The position numbers and the translations under genes were made by a program. A DNA stretch of 64,000 nt from assembly GCF_014696225.1 (NCBI RefSeq), contig NZ_JACJPV010000018.1, forward strand, positions 1-64,000. The letters are read 5' to 3'. Positions 8,591 through 16,381 of this stretch are shown in pieces. Positions within the stretch are counted from its first letter, which is position 1. Each line of letters starts with the position of its first letter. This stretch comes from Anabaena sp. FACHB-1237 (lineage in GTDB: Bacteria; Cyanobacteriota; Cyanobacteriia; Cyanobacteriales; Nostocaceae). The notes beneath the pieces were generated by a model. That model was not told where the DNA came from and searched no databases. It saw only the letters and a list, made by a program, of their open reading frames with translations.

Positions 8591-9496
8591 TTACTTATTG
8601 GTTAATAGTTGGATAAAAGCTAAACCAGCGATGGAGTTACCAGTAGGATCTAATGGTGGACTGTAGGAAGCGATCGCTCCTTGATGGGGTATGATAGTTA
8701 GTAAAGTGCCACTAATACCTGATTTCATGGGTAGGCCTATTTTAGCGGTATATTGAGGGGAATCTTCGTATAAACCACAGGTTAGCATGACAGAATTAAC
8801 AAGTTGACGATGTTGAGGATGTATATAGTTGTTGTGATGGGATAATACATAACCTAACTTAGCCAAATCTTGTACTGTTGTAGAGAGACAACATATTTGT
8901 TCATAGGTATCAAGGGCTATTTCCAGATTGGTGATATGTTGAGTGTAATAGAGATATTGAGCGATCGCTATATTTATCTGGGAACGAGTAGCACGAACAT
9001 CGGCTAATAGAGTTTCATCTAAAAATAATTGAGAGTGTGCTAATTTATTTAACCATTGACAAAATAGGTGGGTACGAATTGTAGGATTTTCTCCTGGTAA
9101 GTTATCAGCTACAGTAATAGCGCCACTGTTTATCATGGGGTTGCGGGGATAACCGTGATCGTCTTGTAGTTGTTGTAAAGAGTTAAAAGGACTAGAGGAA
9201 GGTTCAATTCCCACCAAGTTTAATACTTTTTCTGATCCTAAACATTCTAAGAGGTATAAGAAAGAGAAAGGTTTAATGACACTCATTAAAGGAAATTGAA
9301 TATTAGTATCACCTAAACAATAGTGTGATTGTAAGTTTGATGGTGACTGATAACAGATATGTATAGCGAATGCGAGGGGATCAGCTTGAGATAAGCTAGG
9401 AATACGTTGAATAACAGTCCCAAAAGCGGCATGGGTTTTGGCTTGTGTGAAGCAAAGAGATAAAGTATCGAGATTAATGTTTTGTAAATTGATCAT
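8591..9496 (-). CDS. glsA: Glutaminase A
   Basis: A 301-residue cytosolic serine-dependent beta-lactamase-fold enzyme that hydrolyses glutamine to glutamate and ammonia. The nucleophile motif SxxK is visible as S72-V-I-K75. The family signature RNPMINSGAI follows around residue 138, and the C-terminal region shows the expected KSGISGTLLTIIP segment. Length matches the family (about 300-310). It is a single gene, divergently placed to hisF, with no operon partner. Confidence 0.93.
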   Translation of the reverse strand: MINLQNINLDTLSLCFTQAKTHAAFGTVIQRIPSLSQADPLAFAIHICYQSPSNLQSHYCLGDTNIQFPLMSVIKPFSFLYLLECLGSEKVLNLVGIEPSSSPFNSLQQLQDDHGYPRNPMINSGAITVADNLPGENPTIRTHLFCQWLNKLAHSQLFLDETLLADVRATRSQINIAIAQYLYYTQHITNLEIALDTYEQICCLSTTVQDLAKLGYVLSHHNNYIHPQHRQLVNSVMLTCGLYEDSPQYTAKIGLPMKSGISGTLLTIIPHQGAIASYSPPLDPTGNSIAGLAFIQLLTNK

Positions 9497-9666
9497 AATA
9501 GAAGGATGATTATTAGATCATAGTTTTGTTGATTTTGGTTAATTTAATATAATTTAAGACTTATTTGCTGGTTATTTCGGGTTTAGTATTTCCTGTTTGT
9601 TATAACCTAAATTACCCCAATACGCTTAAAATTAAATTCCGAGCAATTACTAGGAGTGGAAAGTAT

Positions 9667-10440
9667 ATGTTAGCCAAAAGAATCTTACCTTGCTTAGATG
9701 TGAAAGCTGGTCGTGTTGTGAAGGGAGTTAATTTTATTGATCTTAAAGATGCTGGTGATCCCGTAGAACTGGCTAAAGTTTATAATGAAGCCGGTGCGGA
9801 TGAGTTAGTGTTTCTGGATATTACAGCTACTCATGAAGACCGGAATACGATTATTGATGTAGTGTACAGGACGGCGGAGCAGGTTTTCATTCCATTGACT
9901 GTGGGAGGTGGAGTGCAAACCTTAGAAAATGTTAAAGATTTGTTACGAGCGGGTGCGGATAAGGTTAGTATTAATTCTGCAGCGGTGAGAAATCCAGATT
10001 TAATCAGTGAAGCGAGCGATCGCTTTGGAAATCAATGTATTGTGGTGGCTATTGATGCTAGACGCAGAGTTGATCCAAAAAATCCTGGTTGGGATGTTTA
10101 TGTACGCGGTGGTCGAGAGAATACGGGTATAGATGCTCTATTTTGGGCTGAGGAGGTAACGAAAAGGGGTGCAGGAGAGTTGTTAGTGACGAGTATGGAT
10201 GCTGATGGTACACAAGCTGGTTATGATTTGGAGTTAACAAGGGCGATCGCTGATGCTGTGGAAGTTCCAGTTATTGCTTCTGGTGGTGCAGGAAACTGTC
10301 AACATATTCATGAGGCGTTAACTAATGGTAAGGCCGAAGCGGCATTACTAGCATCTTTGTTACATTATGGACAATTAAGTGTGGCAGAAATTAAAACCTA
10401 CCTGCAAGAACGTCAGGTTCCCGTGCGTTTTGCTGCATGA
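9667..10440 (+). CDS. hisF: Imidazole glycerol phosphate synthase, cyclase subunit
   Basis: A 257-residue (beta/alpha)8-barrel enzyme of histidine biosynthesis. With HisH it converts PRFAR and ammonia into imidazole glycerol phosphate and AICAR. The catalytic aspartates lie in [14 protein letters not shown] (Asp11) and VVAIDARR (about Asp130). The frame is open further upstream to 9565, but ATG 9667 is chosen because the protein family begins [12 protein letters not shown] and an AGGAGTGG ribosome binding site ends seven bases before it. No other his genes are adjacent, as is common in cyanobacteria. Confidence 0.96.
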
Positions 10441-10547
10441 TTTTAGCTACAGCGATCAAGTACATCTGTCGGAATTTCTCCAATGAGTCACACTTCCAGA
10501 AAACAATGTTAATATTAGGGGACTAGTATTAAGAAATATTAAGAAAT

Positions 10548-10736
10548 ATGTTGATTCCTATTTTATTATTTGATGTTGCGCTTGTAGCTTGGTCGCTCCA
10601 CCTAATGGAGAAAGCATATCAGCACAAAGAGTTTTCTTTAGTGTTGGCGGGAACATTGGTTGCCCTTGCGGCCGCAGCAATGTTAGTGGTATATTTTTTA
10701 ATGGGAAATTGTATGTCGTATTTATTACATAGTTAA
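10548..10736 (+). CDS. Small hydrophobic membrane protein
   Basis: A 62-residue frame beginning MLIPILLFDVALVAWSLHL, with two predicted transmembrane helices (about residues 1-20 and 30-53) joined by a short charged loop (EKAYQHKE). No named family is recognised. Regular amino acid usage and the membrane pattern support a real small protein, but a chance frame cannot be excluded. It lies between hisF and the glycosyltransferase with more than 100 bp on each side. Confidence 0.55.
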   Translation: MLIPILLFDVALVAWSLHLMEKAYQHKEFSLVLAGTLVALAAAAMLVVYFLMGNCMSYLLHS

Positions 10737-10884
10737 AGTAATCAAGGAGTGAAGCATGAAGAATAATTGATTAAGCGAACCTGTTGACTCCTGACTACTG
10801 AAACCTGAAATATTTTGTAAAATACCCTACTTAATGTATATTGGTAAGCATTGTAGTTAAATATTGTGGTAAATAAAGTAACCT

Positions 10885-12270
10885 ATGCCAGCAAATTCCT
10901 GGCCTGAAAAGGATTCTGATCAGGAAAATTCTCATCCTCTAAACACCGTGTTATCTGATCAATCAGATAATGAATTAGAGAATAAGAAAGTTCCTATATT
11001 TTTAAACGCTTCCCGTTTTCAGGGACGTAGAATCAAGGCTGCTCTAGTATTAACTATAGTGTGGATTATTACTATAGCTTTACATTTAATTTCTTGGGGT
11101 TCGATGTTAATTTTGACATTAACAGGTTTTCTAGGTATTCATGCTTTTAGGATTATTTTTGCTAAACATCGCAAATATCCACAGGTAATGGAGGGAAATT
11201 TACCGTTGGTTTCTGTGTTAGTGGCTGCTAAAAATGAGGAAGCGGTAATTAATAGATTAGTAAATAATCTTTGTAGTTTAGAATATGCTGGTAATTATGA
11301 GGTTTGGATTATAGATGATAATAGTACTGATCATACACCTAATTTATTAAAATCTTTACAAGAAGAGTATCCACAGTTAAATGTATTCCATCGTGATGCA
11401 CAAGCTAGTGGAGGAAAGTCAGGGGCACTAAATCAGGTATTATCTTTGACGAAGGGTGATATTATTGCTGTGTTTGATGCAGATGCTCAAGTGAGTCGAG
11501 ATTTATTAACAAAGGTAGTACCTTTATTTCAAAGGGAAAAGGTGGGAGCGGTACAATTAAGAAAAGCGATCGCTAATGCGTCTGAAAACTTTTGGACTAA
11601 GGGACAAATGGCGGAAATGGCCTTAGATATGTGGTTTCAAGAACAGCGTACTACTATTGGTGGTGTTGGTGAGTTACGGGGAAATGGTCAATTTGTGCGT
11701 CGTGAGGCGTTAGATAGTTGTGGTGGTTGGAATGAGGAGACTATTACGGATGATTTAGATTTAACGATTCGTTTACATTTAGATAAATGGGATATTGAAT
11801 GTGTGTTCTATCCTCCGGTGCAAGAGGAAGGGGTAACAAGTGCTTTAGCACTTTGGCATCAGCGTAATCGCTGGGCTGAGGGTGGATATCAGCGTTATTT
11901 AGACTATGGGGATCTCATTTTCAAGAATGCTATGGGAGGGGGTAAAACTTTAGATTTGCTGATTTTTGTGTTGATTATGTATATTCTACCGACGGCATCT
12001 ATTCCAGATATCCTGATGGCGATAATTGGCCATCGTTCACCTATGTTAGCACCAATAACGGGTTTATCATTAACTATGTCAGTGGTGGGGATGTTTGCGG
12101 GTTTACAAAGGACTTGTTTGGAAAAATCTAATTATTTAGTATTGTTGTTGCAAACCGTCCGTGGTAGTATATATATGTTACATTGGTTGGTGGTGATGAG
12201 TAGTACCACTGCGAGAATGTCAATTAGACCTAAGCGGTTGAAGTGGGTAAAGACGGTACATAGAGGATGA
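10885..12270 (+). CDS. Family 2 glycosyltransferase, membrane-bound
   Basis: A 461-residue protein with a polar N-terminus, transmembrane segments at about residues 50-95, a GT-A catalytic domain (about 105-330) and C-terminal transmembrane helices. Processive GT2 motifs are present in order: DDNSTDH, the DxD-type DADA, the acceptor-site TDDLDL and a QRNRW (Q/RxxRW) motif. The layout resembles cellulose and hyaluronan synthases and other polysaccharide synthases that polymerise at the plasma membrane from NDP-sugars. The product is unknown. No other exopolysaccharide genes lie nearby. Confidence 0.88.
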   Translation: MPANSWPEKDSDQENSHPLNTVLSDQSDNELENKKVPIFLNASRFQGRRIKAALVLTIVWIITIALHLISWGSMLILTLTGFLGIHAFRIIFAKHRKYPQVMEGNLPLVSVLVAAKNEEAVINRLVNNLCSLEYAGNYEVWIIDDNSTDHTPNLLKSLQEEYPQLNVFHRDAQASGGKSGALNQVLSLTKGDIIAVFDADAQVSRDLLTKVVPLFQREKVGAVQLRKAIANASENFWTKGQMAEMALDMWFQEQRTTIGGVGELRGNGQFVRREALDSCGGWNEETITDDLDLTIRLHLDKWDIECVFYPPVQEEGVTSALALWHQRNRWAEGGYQRYLDYGDLIFKNAMGGGKTLDLLIFVLIMYILPTASIPDILMAIIGHRSPMLAPITGLSLTMSVVGMFAGLQRTCLEKSNYLVLLLQTVRGSIYMLHWLVVMSSTTARMSIRPKRLKWVKTVHRG

Positions 12271-12455
12271 TATTAGTGGAATTTAGTAGTTGTAGGTTAG
12301 GTCCGATAAAGAGTTTGTTGATATCTGAATTAACCTACAACTGATGTAAGTGAGCGATCGCTTGTATACTATCTAACCTTGGTTAATAGTTCTGGGATAA
12401 TTGCCTGGAGATAATCAATAGAATATGATCCTGATACTATTTATATATTTATATC

Positions 12456-12758
12456 TCAATCAATCAAATCGCCTAATTTATAATCTGGGTTGTGAGTAAT
12501 AGAGATAACATATTTATCCAACTTAGGGTCAAATAAGCCTATAGCACCGTACAAATGTGCTAATTTATGTGCTATGACAAAGGCTACAGGAATAGATGTA
12601 GGTCCATTAATCTTCAATAATTCTCCGTGTAGTTGACCTGCTTGATAGAGTTCTTCTAAACGTGCTGCGGCATCCTTGACAATTTGATCATTTTGTGCTG
12701 GTTCACCAAACTTAACTCTTAAAATTCCGTCTTGCAAATCAATGTTATAACTACTCAT
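12456..12758 (-). CDS. csx3: Csx3-family CRISPR-associated protein (ring-nuclease family)
   Basis: A 100-residue protein matching the Csx3/Crn3 family along its length. Conserved elements are INGPTSIPVA, H64 and H68 in AHKLAH, D77 in FDPKL, H89 in SITH and the terminal GD at 96-97. Characterised Csx3 proteins from type III CRISPR systems degrade the second messenger cyclic tetra-adenylate (cA4) and so switch off the immune response. Here it stands alone: there is no cas gene, CRISPR array or fused AAA domain in the window. It lies between a glycosyltransferase and a dihydroorotase-like gene. The cellular role is therefore open. Confidence 0.85.
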   Translation of the reverse strand: MSSYNIDLQDGILRVKFGEPAQNDQIVKDAAARLEELYQAGQLHGELLKINGPTSIPVAFVIAHKLAHLYGAIGLFDPKLDKYVISITHNPDYKLGDLID

Positions 12759-12921
12759 GGTGGAAAGGTAAATTGATTATCAAACTAACAATTCCTATTA
12801 TGACGCGAGGTAGAAAATGCCTATTTTATAATTTTTTTGATCATCCAAACTTAATCAAAACTAGCAAATTTGCTGATCAGTAAGTAAAATAAACAACGGT
12901 AAAACCGCAGTAAAAGTTATT

Positions 12922-14184
12922 ATGGCCAGAGAATTATTAAAACAAGTAAGATTATTAGATCCCATTACTCATCAAGATCGGATAGTAGATATACTAATTA
13001 TTGATGGTTATATCCAAAACATAGCTCCAGAAATTACAGATATTGATATTCATGCTAGAATTTATGAGTGTAAGGATCTGGTTATTGGACCGGGACTAGT
13101 TGATTTATATAGTCATTGCGGAGAGCCGGGTTTTGAGGAACGAGAAACTTTAGCCTGTTTTTTACAAAGTGCGGTCATGGGTGGATTTACTAGAGTTAAC
13201 GTATTACCAGATACTTTACCTGTAATTGATCATCCAGGGTTAGTGGCACAATTGCAACAAAAGAGATTGCAACATTACCCATGTTCTAATCTGGGCTTTT
13301 GGGGTGCGATGACACTAGACTTAGCTGGTAAACAGTTAACTGAGTTTAAGGACTTAGTGAATGCGGGGGTGGTAGGTTTTACGGATAGTGAACCTTGGAC
13401 AAATCTAAATTTGGTTAAGAGAGTGTTAGAATATCTACAACCTTTGAAAAAACCTATAGCATTTTGGCCATGCGATCGCTCACTAGCTGGAAACGGTATT
13501 ATACGTGAAGGTACGGATGCGTTACGTATAGGATTACCCTCTATTCCTGCAAGTGCAGAAACCACAGCTTTAGCTGCTTTATTAGAAATAGTAGGAGAAG
13601 TAGGGACTGCTGTTCATATCATGCGAGTTTCCACTGCGCGGAGTGTGGACTTAATTGCTACAGCTAAGGCTAAAGGTTTGCCAGTCACAGCGAGTACCAC
13701 GTGGATGCACTTATTACTGGATACGAAATGTATTAAGAGTTATGACACATCCTTGCATTTGCAGCCACCGTTGGGGAATAATCAAGATATGTTATGTTTG
13801 CGAGATGGTGTGAGGAATGGGGTAATAGATGCGATCGCTATAGATCATGCAGCTTATACCTATGAAGAGAAAATGCAGGCATTTGCGGAAGCGCCACCAG
13901 GGGCGATAGGGTTACAAATAGCATTACCTTTATTATGGCATCACCTGGTTAGTACAGGGGAATTTACAGCTTTAGAATTATGGGGTAGTTTAAGCAGTAA
14001 ACCAGCGGCTTGTCTCCAACAAAGTATCAACCCTATTAAAATAGGAGAGAAGGCAGAATTAACACTATTTAACCCCGAAAAACCTTGGATAGTTAACCGA
14101 AAAAACCTTGGTGCTTTGAATGATAATACTCCTTGGTTAAACCAAGAAATTAGGGGTACTGTGATTCGTAGTTGGTTTATGTAA
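12922..14184 (+). CDS. Dihydroorotase-like protein with degraded metal site
   Basis: A 420-residue amidohydrolase-superfamily protein clearly homologous to dihydroorotase (PyrC), the third enzyme of pyrimidine synthesis. Several metal ligands are altered. The canonical HxH after GLVDL is Y63-S-H65, the substrate arginine of the xREPG motif is glycine (GEPG), and DHAPH reads DHAAY. The family's PHHL segment is replaced by TTWMHLL. The FTDSE segment with its Asp is kept. Similar catalytically doubtful paralogues are often annotated as dihydroorotase in cyanobacteria. It may be a non-catalytic partner or have another activity. Confidence 0.8.
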   Translation: MARELLKQVRLLDPITHQDRIVDILIIDGYIQNIAPEITDIDIHARIYECKDLVIGPGLVDLYSHCGEPGFEERETLACFLQSAVMGGFTRVNVLPDTLPVIDHPGLVAQLQQKRLQHYPCSNLGFWGAMTLDLAGKQLTEFKDLVNAGVVGFTDSEPWTNLNLVKRVLEYLQPLKKPIAFWPCDRSLAGNGIIREGTDALRIGLPSIPASAETTALAALLEIVGEVGTAVHIMRVSTARSVDLIATAKAKGLPVTASTTWMHLLLDTKCIKSYDTSLHLQPPLGNNQDMLCLRDGVRNGVIDAIAIDHAAYTYEEKMQAFAEAPPGAIGLQIALPLLWHHLVSTGEFTALELWGSLSSKPAACLQQSINPIKIGEKAELTLFNPEKPWIVNRKNLGALNDNTPWLNQEIRGTVIRSWFM

Positions 14185-14599
14185 AACCTTTTGTTCAGTA
14201 AGCATATTTATAGCTTGCTGAATAAGTGCTTTGGTTTAGGTATAGTTTTGAATGTTAATAGCTATTGATGAAACGCTATTATTTGACATACTCACACCAA
14301 AATCAGAAGATGCATTAATATCACTATTATTGAACGTAACTATTAATCAAGACACAACTCAAAAATATTCAAACTTTATTTATTGTATCATTAAAATTAC
14401 GTATTTTTGACCGTATCTTAAAAAATAGTTAAGATTTCCGTAGATAAGAACCATAGCACTTTTAAATATGAACAAAAAGATCCCCGAATTATCTAATAAG
14501 TCGAGGATCTGACTCTTGTAATGCAATGTATCTCTAAGCAAAAAAAAGCGGGCAATATGCCCGCATTACTCTGATATTTACAAGCCTAACTGCTGAATG
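14185..14599. other. Intergenic region with two minus-strand hairpins
   Basis: The first half, downstream of the dihydroorotase-like gene, holds nothing recognisable. At 14473-14513 the minus strand forms a ten-pair stem (AGATCCTCGA with TCGGGGATCT) followed by TTTTTG, a second terminator-like structure beyond the main rnj terminator at 14540-14564. Confidence 0.5.
14540..14564 (-). terminator. Rho-independent terminator of rnj
   Basis: On the minus strand a perfect six-pair stem GCGGGC/GCCCGC with a five-base loop is followed by seven T. It starts 35 bp after the RNase J stop codon. Confidence 0.92.
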
Positions 14600-16381
14600 C
14601 TAAGAAGCTACTTGTGCTGTAGAACGAGTTCTTCTTCTTCTACCATCTGCTACTTTGACAGAACTTGCTGAAGCAGAGCCTTCTTCGGGAACTTGCATTA
14701 ACAAGGTTACAGATGGTTGACATTGTAATTCTTTTCTGAGCGATCGCGCCACTTCCATTTCTAAAGTCTCTTGCAAACCGCCCCAATCAATATCATTCGC
14801 GCCATTACCTCTTGCAAATTCGCCCCAACGTACCCCTAATATTTCCTCAATACGCTGTTGTACCCATTTCTGTAACAGCGATCGCTGAATGCTAGTTACT
14901 ACACCTCGCAGATGTATTTCTGGTTTAGCCATGAGTTTACCATTCCAGTCAATAGCGGTAGCAATGGTAACAATTCCCTCCGAAGCCATGCTTTGTCTTT
15001 CTTGCAGGACTTTAGAACTAACCATACCAGAACTAGAAGTATCTACCAACTCAATTCCTGATGGTACTTTACCTGCTACCTGGATAGCATCTTCTGTTAA
15101 TTCTATGACATCACCATTCTGGATAATGATCATATTCTCTTTAGGAATACCCATACTTTGTGCTGTTTCCGAATGTTTAACTAACATCCGATGTTCGCCA
15201 TGAAATGGTACAAAGAACTTAGGACGAGTCAAAGCTATCATAAGTTTTTGATCTTCTTGACAGCCATGGCCAGAAACGTGAACGCCTTTCTCCCGGCCAT
15301 AAACCACTTTTGCTCCTTGCATCATTAACTTATCAATGGTATTAACCACTGCTATAGTATTACCGGGAATAGGGTTCGCTGAAAAGATAACAGTATCGCC
15401 TTCTCGAATTTTAATGTGGGGATGCTCTTTATTAGCTATGCGTGTCATAGCTGCCATTGACTCACCTTGAGAACCCGTAGTTAAAATTAGCACATTCTCA
15501 TCAGGCATTCCGCGAACTGTGTGTAGAGGTTGAAACAAACTATCCTCACACTTAATATAACCCAGGTTACGAGAGTGAGCAATTAGATTCAACATAGAAC
15601 GACCGATTATCGTCACCACGCGATTATGCTTTTTAGCTAGTTCCAACACCATACTAATACGATGCACACTAGACGCAAAAGTAGTAACAAATAATCTTCC
15701 CGTTGCTTGGGAAAATACCCGATCTAAGTTAGGATATACTGACCGTTCCGAAGGTGTAAAACCAGGGACTTCTGCGTTAGTGGAATCACTTAAAAGACAA
15801 AGTACACCTTTTTCACCATGTTCTGCTAACCGTTGTAAATCAAACTTTTCCCCATCTACGGGGGTATGATCAAATTTAAAATCTCCCGTGTGAATTACCA
15901 CTCCTAATGGCGTATGAATAGCTACCGTAAAACTATCAGCGATGGAGTGAGTATTTCTGATATATTCCACAAAGAAAGACTTACCAATTCTGACCACATC
16001 ACGGGGTAATACTGATCTTAATTCCGTGCGATCGCGTACTCCTGCTTCTTCTAGTTTCCCCTCTAACATAGCCATAGCCAGTCTCGGTCCATAAATTACC
16101 GGGATATCAAACTGTTTGAGGTGAAAAGCGATACCACCAATATGATCTTCATGACCATGAGTGACTATCATACCTTTAATCTTATGCTTATTTTCCCTGA
16201 GATAAGTAGTATCAGGCAATACAATATTTACACCGTGCATAGCTTCGGTAGGAAAAGCTAACCCAGCATCCAACAGCACGATTTCATTATCATACTCGAA
16301 GACACAGGTATTTTTTCCTATTTCGTGTAACCCTCCCAAAGGGATAATTTTCAGTGGGTTTTTAGCGTCGTTGTTAGTCAT
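14600..16381 (-). CDS. rnj: Ribonuclease J
   Basis: A 593-residue metallo-beta-lactamase/beta-CASP ribonuclease that combines endonuclease and 5'-to-3' exonuclease activity in RNA maturation and decay. The zinc ligands are in THGHEDH (H75, H77, D79, H80), and further motifs include HTGDFKFD and the SGHGCQEDQK beta-CASP segment. The C-terminal domain is present, ending in a short basic tail (GRRRRTR). It is the last of three genes asd, dapA and rnj on the minus strand, though a 444-bp gap before it suggests its own promoter. Confidence 0.95.
   Translation of the reverse strand: MTNNDAKNPLKIIPLGGLHEIGKNTCVFEYDNEIVLLDAGLAFPTEAMHGVNIVLPDTTYLRENKHKIKGMIVTHGHEDHIGGIAFHLKQFDIPVIYGPRLAMAMLEGKLEEAGVRDRTELRSVLPRDVVRIGKSFFVEYIRNTHSIADSFTVAIHTPLGVVIHTGDFKFDHTPVDGEKFDLQRLAEHGEKGVLCLLSDSTNAEVPGFTPSERSVYPNLDRVFSQATGRLFVTTFASSVHRISMVLELAKKHNRVVTIIGRSMLNLIAHSRNLGYIKCEDSLFQPLHTVRGMPDENVLILTTGSQGESMAAMTRIANKEHPHIKIREGDTVIFSANPIPGNTIAVVNTIDKLMMQGAKVVYGREKGVHVSGHGCQEDQKLMIALTRPKFFVPFHGEHRMLVKHSETAQSMGIPKENMIIIQNGDVIELTEDAIQVAGKVPSGIELVDTSSSGMVSSKVLQERQSMASEGIVTIATAIDWNGKLMAKPEIHLRGVVTSIQRSLLQKWVQQRIEEILGVRWGEFARGNGANDIDWGGLQETLEMEVARSLRKELQCQPSVTLLMQVPEEGSASASSVKVADGRRRRTRSTAQVAS

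Follow-up and report, generated by a model that had tools for sequence, protein, structure and literature searches.

The 64,000-nt stretch of Anabaena sp. FACHB-1237 DNA analysed here (the window) carries on its minus strand an intact gene of 100 codons with an ATG start (12456-12758), whose product was assigned from profiles and a predicted fold as an orphan Csx3-like predicted ring nuclease. Proteins of the Csx3 kind are normally encoded inside type III CRISPR operons, and they are thought to end the alarm by destroying the signalling molecule. Here, the gene lies between a family 2 glycosyltransferase (10885-12270, plus strand) and a dihydroorotase-like amidohydrolase (12922-14184, plus strand), both identified by profile match and both outside the system. 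Farther away, profile search found glutaminase, HisF, and RNase J, and each of the five neighbours profiled from 8594 to 16381 is either a metabolic gene or RNase J. By eye, the dihydroorotase-like protein seems to lack the first histidine of DxHxH, which we take to be the usual motif of these proteins; in this it presumably resembles inactive PyrC-like proteins.

At the family level, the Csx3 identity proposed in the sequence-only reading was borne out by Pfam, PADLOC, and the predicted fold. The protein passed the Pfam Cas_csx3 model (PF09620) narrowly, with 21.8 bits for a cut-off of 21 and a match restricted to residues 50-98, and the PADLOC Csx3 models gave E-values of 2.7e-28 and 8.9e-20. 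A placement outside Csx3 was obtained with the NCBIfam equivalog TIGR02579 only (19.1 bits, far under the cut-off of 55.4), so we assign the protein only to a divergent small Csx3 subfamily outside that equivalog, which we name Csx3-S. The AF2 model, built on 28 aligned sequences (pLDDT 88.5), is predicted to adopt the STAS-like Csx3 fold. Its best structural matches were five entries of Crn3/Csx3 from Archaeoglobus fulgidus (AfCsx3, AF1864; 3WZG, 6YUD, 6VJG), with Z 10.2-10.6 and rmsd 1.8-2.0 over 86-88 residues; 3wzg reached Z 10.6 and rmsd 1.8 Å over 88 residues. The strong PADLOC scores and this predicted fold together argue for a divergent Csx3 subfamily. As a single query, the protein had no relevant match in a sequence search of the PDB, and AfCsx3 was retrieved from it by profile search. 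With Foldseek alone, AfCsx3 was absent among the best 50 matches listed, and the second structure aligner recovered it. No PHROGs family was found for the protein.

The small stand-alone form and the positions of His, His, Asp, and His are also shared with AfCsx3. The consulted part of the work on that enzyme (PMC7371418) assigns H57, H60, D69, R71, and H80 to catalysis and cyclic tetra-adenylate (cA4) binding, on two faces that join between stacked dimers, and describes R71 as absolutely conserved in Csx3. By profile alignment and MAFFT, they correspond to H64 (codon 12567-12569), H68 (12555-12557), D77 (12528-12530), K79 (12522-12524), and H89 (12492-12494), all on the minus strand. All five key positions are present in our protein and in 75 of the 78 other unique Csx3-S sequences, so the retention of His and Asp noticed at first reading stands. 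The match of H68 to H60 was drawn from spacing, since both lie nine residues from the Asp: the stretch from the first His to the Asp is longer by one residue, and the two His stand at i,i+4 rather than i,i+3. If the alignment were run on from H57 with no gap, H68 would pair with H61 and Ala67 would fall at position 60, resembling the inactive H60A protein. The Arg expected of Csx3/Crn3 at position 71 is Lys here and in 77/78 of the other Csx3-S sequences. This change is conservative, and our claim is thus that the protein would work like Crn3, short of being a canonical Crn3. Besides, it differs from AfCsx3 in having Pro for R46 and shares only about 22% identity with it in the structure alignment. 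One residue present in all 78 other Csx3-S sequences is missing after position 44.

The gene had been described as an orphan with no CRISPR-Cas neighbour, and this is true of its contig. When 82 proteins of type III loci and their surroundings were searched against the window with tblastn, the gene itself was the sole match, and the rest of the contig (C10; C-numbers are contigs of this genome, L-numbers the csx3 loci compared, and G-numbers genomes) contained no type III match and no CRISPR array. It is not true of the genome, which holds four loci matching PF22335 (Cas10 palm): two on C4, one on C32, and one on C49. All four Cas10 proteins have open frames and GGDD, and the three scanned with PADLOC (C4, C4, and C32) all matched Cas10. 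Next to the locus on C49 are a CRISPR array and CARF-HEPN genes. Among the CARF effectors of the genome are a Card1/Can2-like CARF-PDDEXK protein (C32), several CARF-HEPN proteins (C4 and C49), and a CARF7-RelE/DUF2103-like protein (C4). Thus, machinery of the cA4 signalling type is present in trans, and of the three options that had been offered for this gene, action on a type III system at a distance has the best support. The genome has two Csx3-domain genes, the orphan and a Csx3-AAA gene directly upstream of csm1 on C4; the latter keeps the canonical active-site residues and may make the orphan redundant. On C4, we also observed by eye, lying between two sets of type III genes, a protein with an ATPase-like start (L051:13208-15709) and a TOPRIM-like neighbour.

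Homologues of the protein are mostly linked to type III systems. In the Nostocaceae sample, 96/192 genomes had a match with an E-value of at most 1e-15. The large loci gave 57 Csx3-S rows, six of them mutual duplicates, which leaves 51 unique loci with the focal one excluded. A Cas10 gene longer than 1 kb lies within 3 kb of Csx3-S in 38 of these 51; it is truncated or cut by the contig end in three (L059, L095, L100) and about 11 kb away in L032. No Cas10 was found in the examined flank of nine loci (L036, L041, L049, L066, L097, L099, L103, L105, L106), although the contig end cuts one flank at 0.6-6 kb in L066, L099, L105, and L106, where linkage is therefore possible. In the tree, the protein is placed among mainly Nostocaceae sequences, most of them type III-linked, and its nearest homologues directly adjoin Cas10. 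Close free-standing copies in other cyanobacteria, which had been suggested as the mark of a housekeeping role, are thus mostly lacking. We also checked the suggested co-occurrence with type III systems: PF22335 matched in 41/42 Csx3-positive and 45/58 Csx3-negative relatives (Fisher p 0.007, with genomes taken as independent and kinship ignored). This model also matches in the E. coli control, and some of the domains counted here as Cas10 may therefore be other cyclase-like domains.

The gene has been under constraint. The median dN/dS (NG86 pairwise, with dS near saturation) was 0.085 against type III-linked copies (21 pairs, dS 1-3) and 0.075 among the linked copies (350 pairs). A value of 0.085 argues that it is no chance ORF; with dS near saturation, the constraint covers the history of the gene, and the period since orphaning is not isolated. 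In line with retention, Csx3-S outlasts its operon in other relatives as well (L059, L095, L094, and L097). In the Rhizonema/Scytonema group, operon loss is graded at the same site: a piece of the partner and a fragment of Cas10 survive in L095, and L097 and L094 have neither. Between the csx3-S genes of L094 and L097, 15 codons differ, 13 of them synonymously (binomial p 9e-7 if a 25% share of synonymous changes is assumed).

On balance, we favour as fairly probable that the gene encodes a Csx3/Crn3-like cA4 phosphodiesterase that was split from a type III operon, has been retained, and acts in trans. If expressed, the protein would cleave cA4 in a Mn-dependent manner: dimers would stack head to tail, the D77/K79 face of one opposing the H64/H68/H89 face of its neighbour, and the cA4 sandwiched there would be cut to linear A2-P. 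Since the type III systems lie on other contigs, the orphan would most likely act from a distance, damping the cA4 made by them and so limiting the CARF effectors. The orphan state may have arisen by displacement of the gene or by loss of the operon around it. Related papers deal with Csx3 (eLife 2020, PMC7371418), CARF proteins of Synechocystis (PMC9676260), conflict systems (eLife 2020, PMC7159879), and classification (Nat Microbiol 2025, PMC12669027). The case shows that a search kept to the few kilobases about Cas10 can overlook a ring nuclease encoded elsewhere in the genome, a point that matters in judging if a type III system has or lacks an off-switch.

The strongest rival is that the gene is a decaying relic without present function, the last gene of a lost type III locus and intact only by its recent origin. 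We find this rather unlikely, but several observations fit it. In other genomes, the type III locus around Csx3-S has decayed (L059, L095, L097, L066/L094). Csx3-S itself has decayed in other genomes, with a stop in G059 and a frameshift in G014. Moreover, our protein has one of the longer end branches in its region of the tree (0.32 vs. a median of 0.054), no promoter excess or strong promoter-like signal was seen upstream of the gene, and the genome has its second, canonical Csx3. However, the open frame is intact, the five residues are kept, the pairwise dN/dS resembles that of linked copies, and neither the window nor the rest of the contig holds remnants of other cas genes.

An improbable alternative to the trans-acting phosphodiesterase is a cA4 sponge, in which the protein would sequester cA4 with weak or absent cleavage. 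There is a known case in PfCsx15, also an orphan ring-nuclease-family gene outside a CRISPR locus, for which measured sponge activity is reported (PMC13148439); PfCsx15 differs in its CARF-like fold and belongs to an unrelated family. Catalysis in our protein could be slowed by the Lys at the R71 position and by the changed spacing of the His pair. Nevertheless, it keeps the three His and the Asp, the same as the operon copies, whereas the relatives that, from their residues, might be cA4 sponges (the viral L185/L186) have lost the first two His and keep the Asp, the Lys, and the last His.

Recruitment into housekeeping, or into a cyclic-nucleotide pathway outside CRISPR, seems still less credible. 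The neighbours are metabolic, and in patescibacterial MAGs the Csx3-S gene adjoins a P-loop gene (L103:8337-9303, L105:7051-9306, L106:132-853) in genomes with no Cas10 match over the cut-off, bins that may be incomplete or contaminated. Against it, the nearest homologues are type III-linked, the active-site residues are unchanged, and a conserved housekeeping neighbourhood was rejected. Conservation of the setting had been proposed as a check, and the combination of glycosyltransferase and dihydroorotase-like genes recurred in 0/29 relatives: in all 29 examined, csx3, the glycosyltransferase, and RNase J never adjoin the dihydroorotase-like gene, and the gene order around it differs among them. 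Besides, we found no flanking DNA common to this and the operon csx3 copies beyond the ORF (matches span 12432-12758). The site is thus private to this genome as far as seen, and gives no support to a housekeeping role.

That the gene encodes a ring nuclease with an anti-CRISPR function, brought in by a phage and left behind in the chromosome, is scarcely plausible: relatives do occur on IMG/VR contigs, but our protein clusters with Nostocaceae chromosomal copies apart from the viral ones, its profiled neighbours are of the metabolic or RNase J kind, and the query had no match in 50,697 phage records.

The viral relatives deserve attention on their own. They were found in L185-L188, L190-L192, L196, and L197; a phage portal protein is encoded on the contig of L186, and the record of L196 has a terminase match. 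The His, Asp, and Lys positions are kept in L190, L191, L192, L197, and L188. L041, at first counted with the cyanobacterial orphans, includes the exact sequence of the L196 stretch and so sits on a contig classed as viral. In its consulted part, a survey of 28,114 phage genomes lists AcrIII-1, Csx20, and Csx16, and not Crn3 (PMC12409355); if real, the viral relatives would make Csx3 one more viral ring nuclease. L185/L186 have a second Csx3-like gene, divergently oriented, beside the Csx3-S relative, and a similar one was seen by eye in L197.

In the relatives, the common gene order is Csx3-S, then Csx3-AAA, then Cas10. Csx3-AAA, or Csx3' (PADLOC PDLC01045, Synechocystis Slr7080), is the common operon partner of Csx3-S and has an N-terminal Csx3 domain closely related to it. 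Unlike Csx3-S, it carries a C-terminal P-loop domain, and its His face is usually degraded when the two are in tandem. We compared 49 unique Csx3-AAA proteins encoded directly downstream of Csx3-S (L031-L106, L145-L183): 49/49 retain the residues at D69 and K71, and only 4 retain all three His, at least one having been lost in the other 45. The three His are kept in 16/17 unpaired Csx3-AAA proteins and lost in 1/17; this set comprises 21 rows minus four (two fused ORFs, each counted twice), with two canonical rows held apart. The difference is strong when kinship is ignored (Fisher p 9e-11). With about five pairing changes in the tree, independent pairs cannot reach significance, and a tree-aware test of His loss in paired partners was not significant at low power, with only 2 starred independent pairs (5 in total). 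Retention of the Asp face together with loss of His in the partners suggests, at the level of residues, hetero-stacked half-sites.

In G093, G074, and G065, a single ORF encodes two Csx3 domains followed by a P-loop domain (L137:6542-7912, L138:7131-8399, L139:6080-7405), which suggests contact between Csx3-S and Csx3-AAA. In these fused ORFs, active-site residues are missing either from both domains, at different positions in each, or from one domain only, and G065 (L139) had no PF22335 match. Many Csx3-S genes precede Cas10 with no such Csx3-AAA adjoining (e.g. L055, L061, L082, L089, L090), so Csx3-S can probably work alone. The "AAA" domain was also modelled (L084:9326-9925, m1795bb901e07; 17 sequences, pLDDT 89.9). 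The model aligns best with P-loop ATPases of the MinD/ParA class, with Z 13.9 and 13.8 for MinD and rmsd 3.3-3.5 over 167-168 residues at 12% identity, a predicted likeness at the level of the fold only.

We put forward, tentatively and as a possibility to be taken jointly, a split two-component ring nuclease, the orphan as a loose donor of the His face, and uptake by viruses and Patescibacteria. Cyanobacterial Csx3-S would donate the His face, its dimers stacking on the Asp face of a fusion of Csx3 with the MinD-like P-loop domain; the fusion would lack a His face of its own, and its ATPase would cap or regulate the cA4-bridged filament. The orphan studied here would be such a donor freed from its partner, serving several type III systems in trans, and viruses and Patescibacteria would have taken up the small protein without Cas10 as counter-defence or as a signal scavenger. 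The Csx3 family gives a directly testable idea of a split active site, in which partners keep one face and lose the other, and the pattern of His loss in tandems and the viral and patescibacterial relatives may outrank the orphan gene in interest. Finally, L144:7489-7797 (G033) encodes a protein of 102 aa that is weakly Csx3-like (28%) and has none of the His residues, possibly a domesticated relative.
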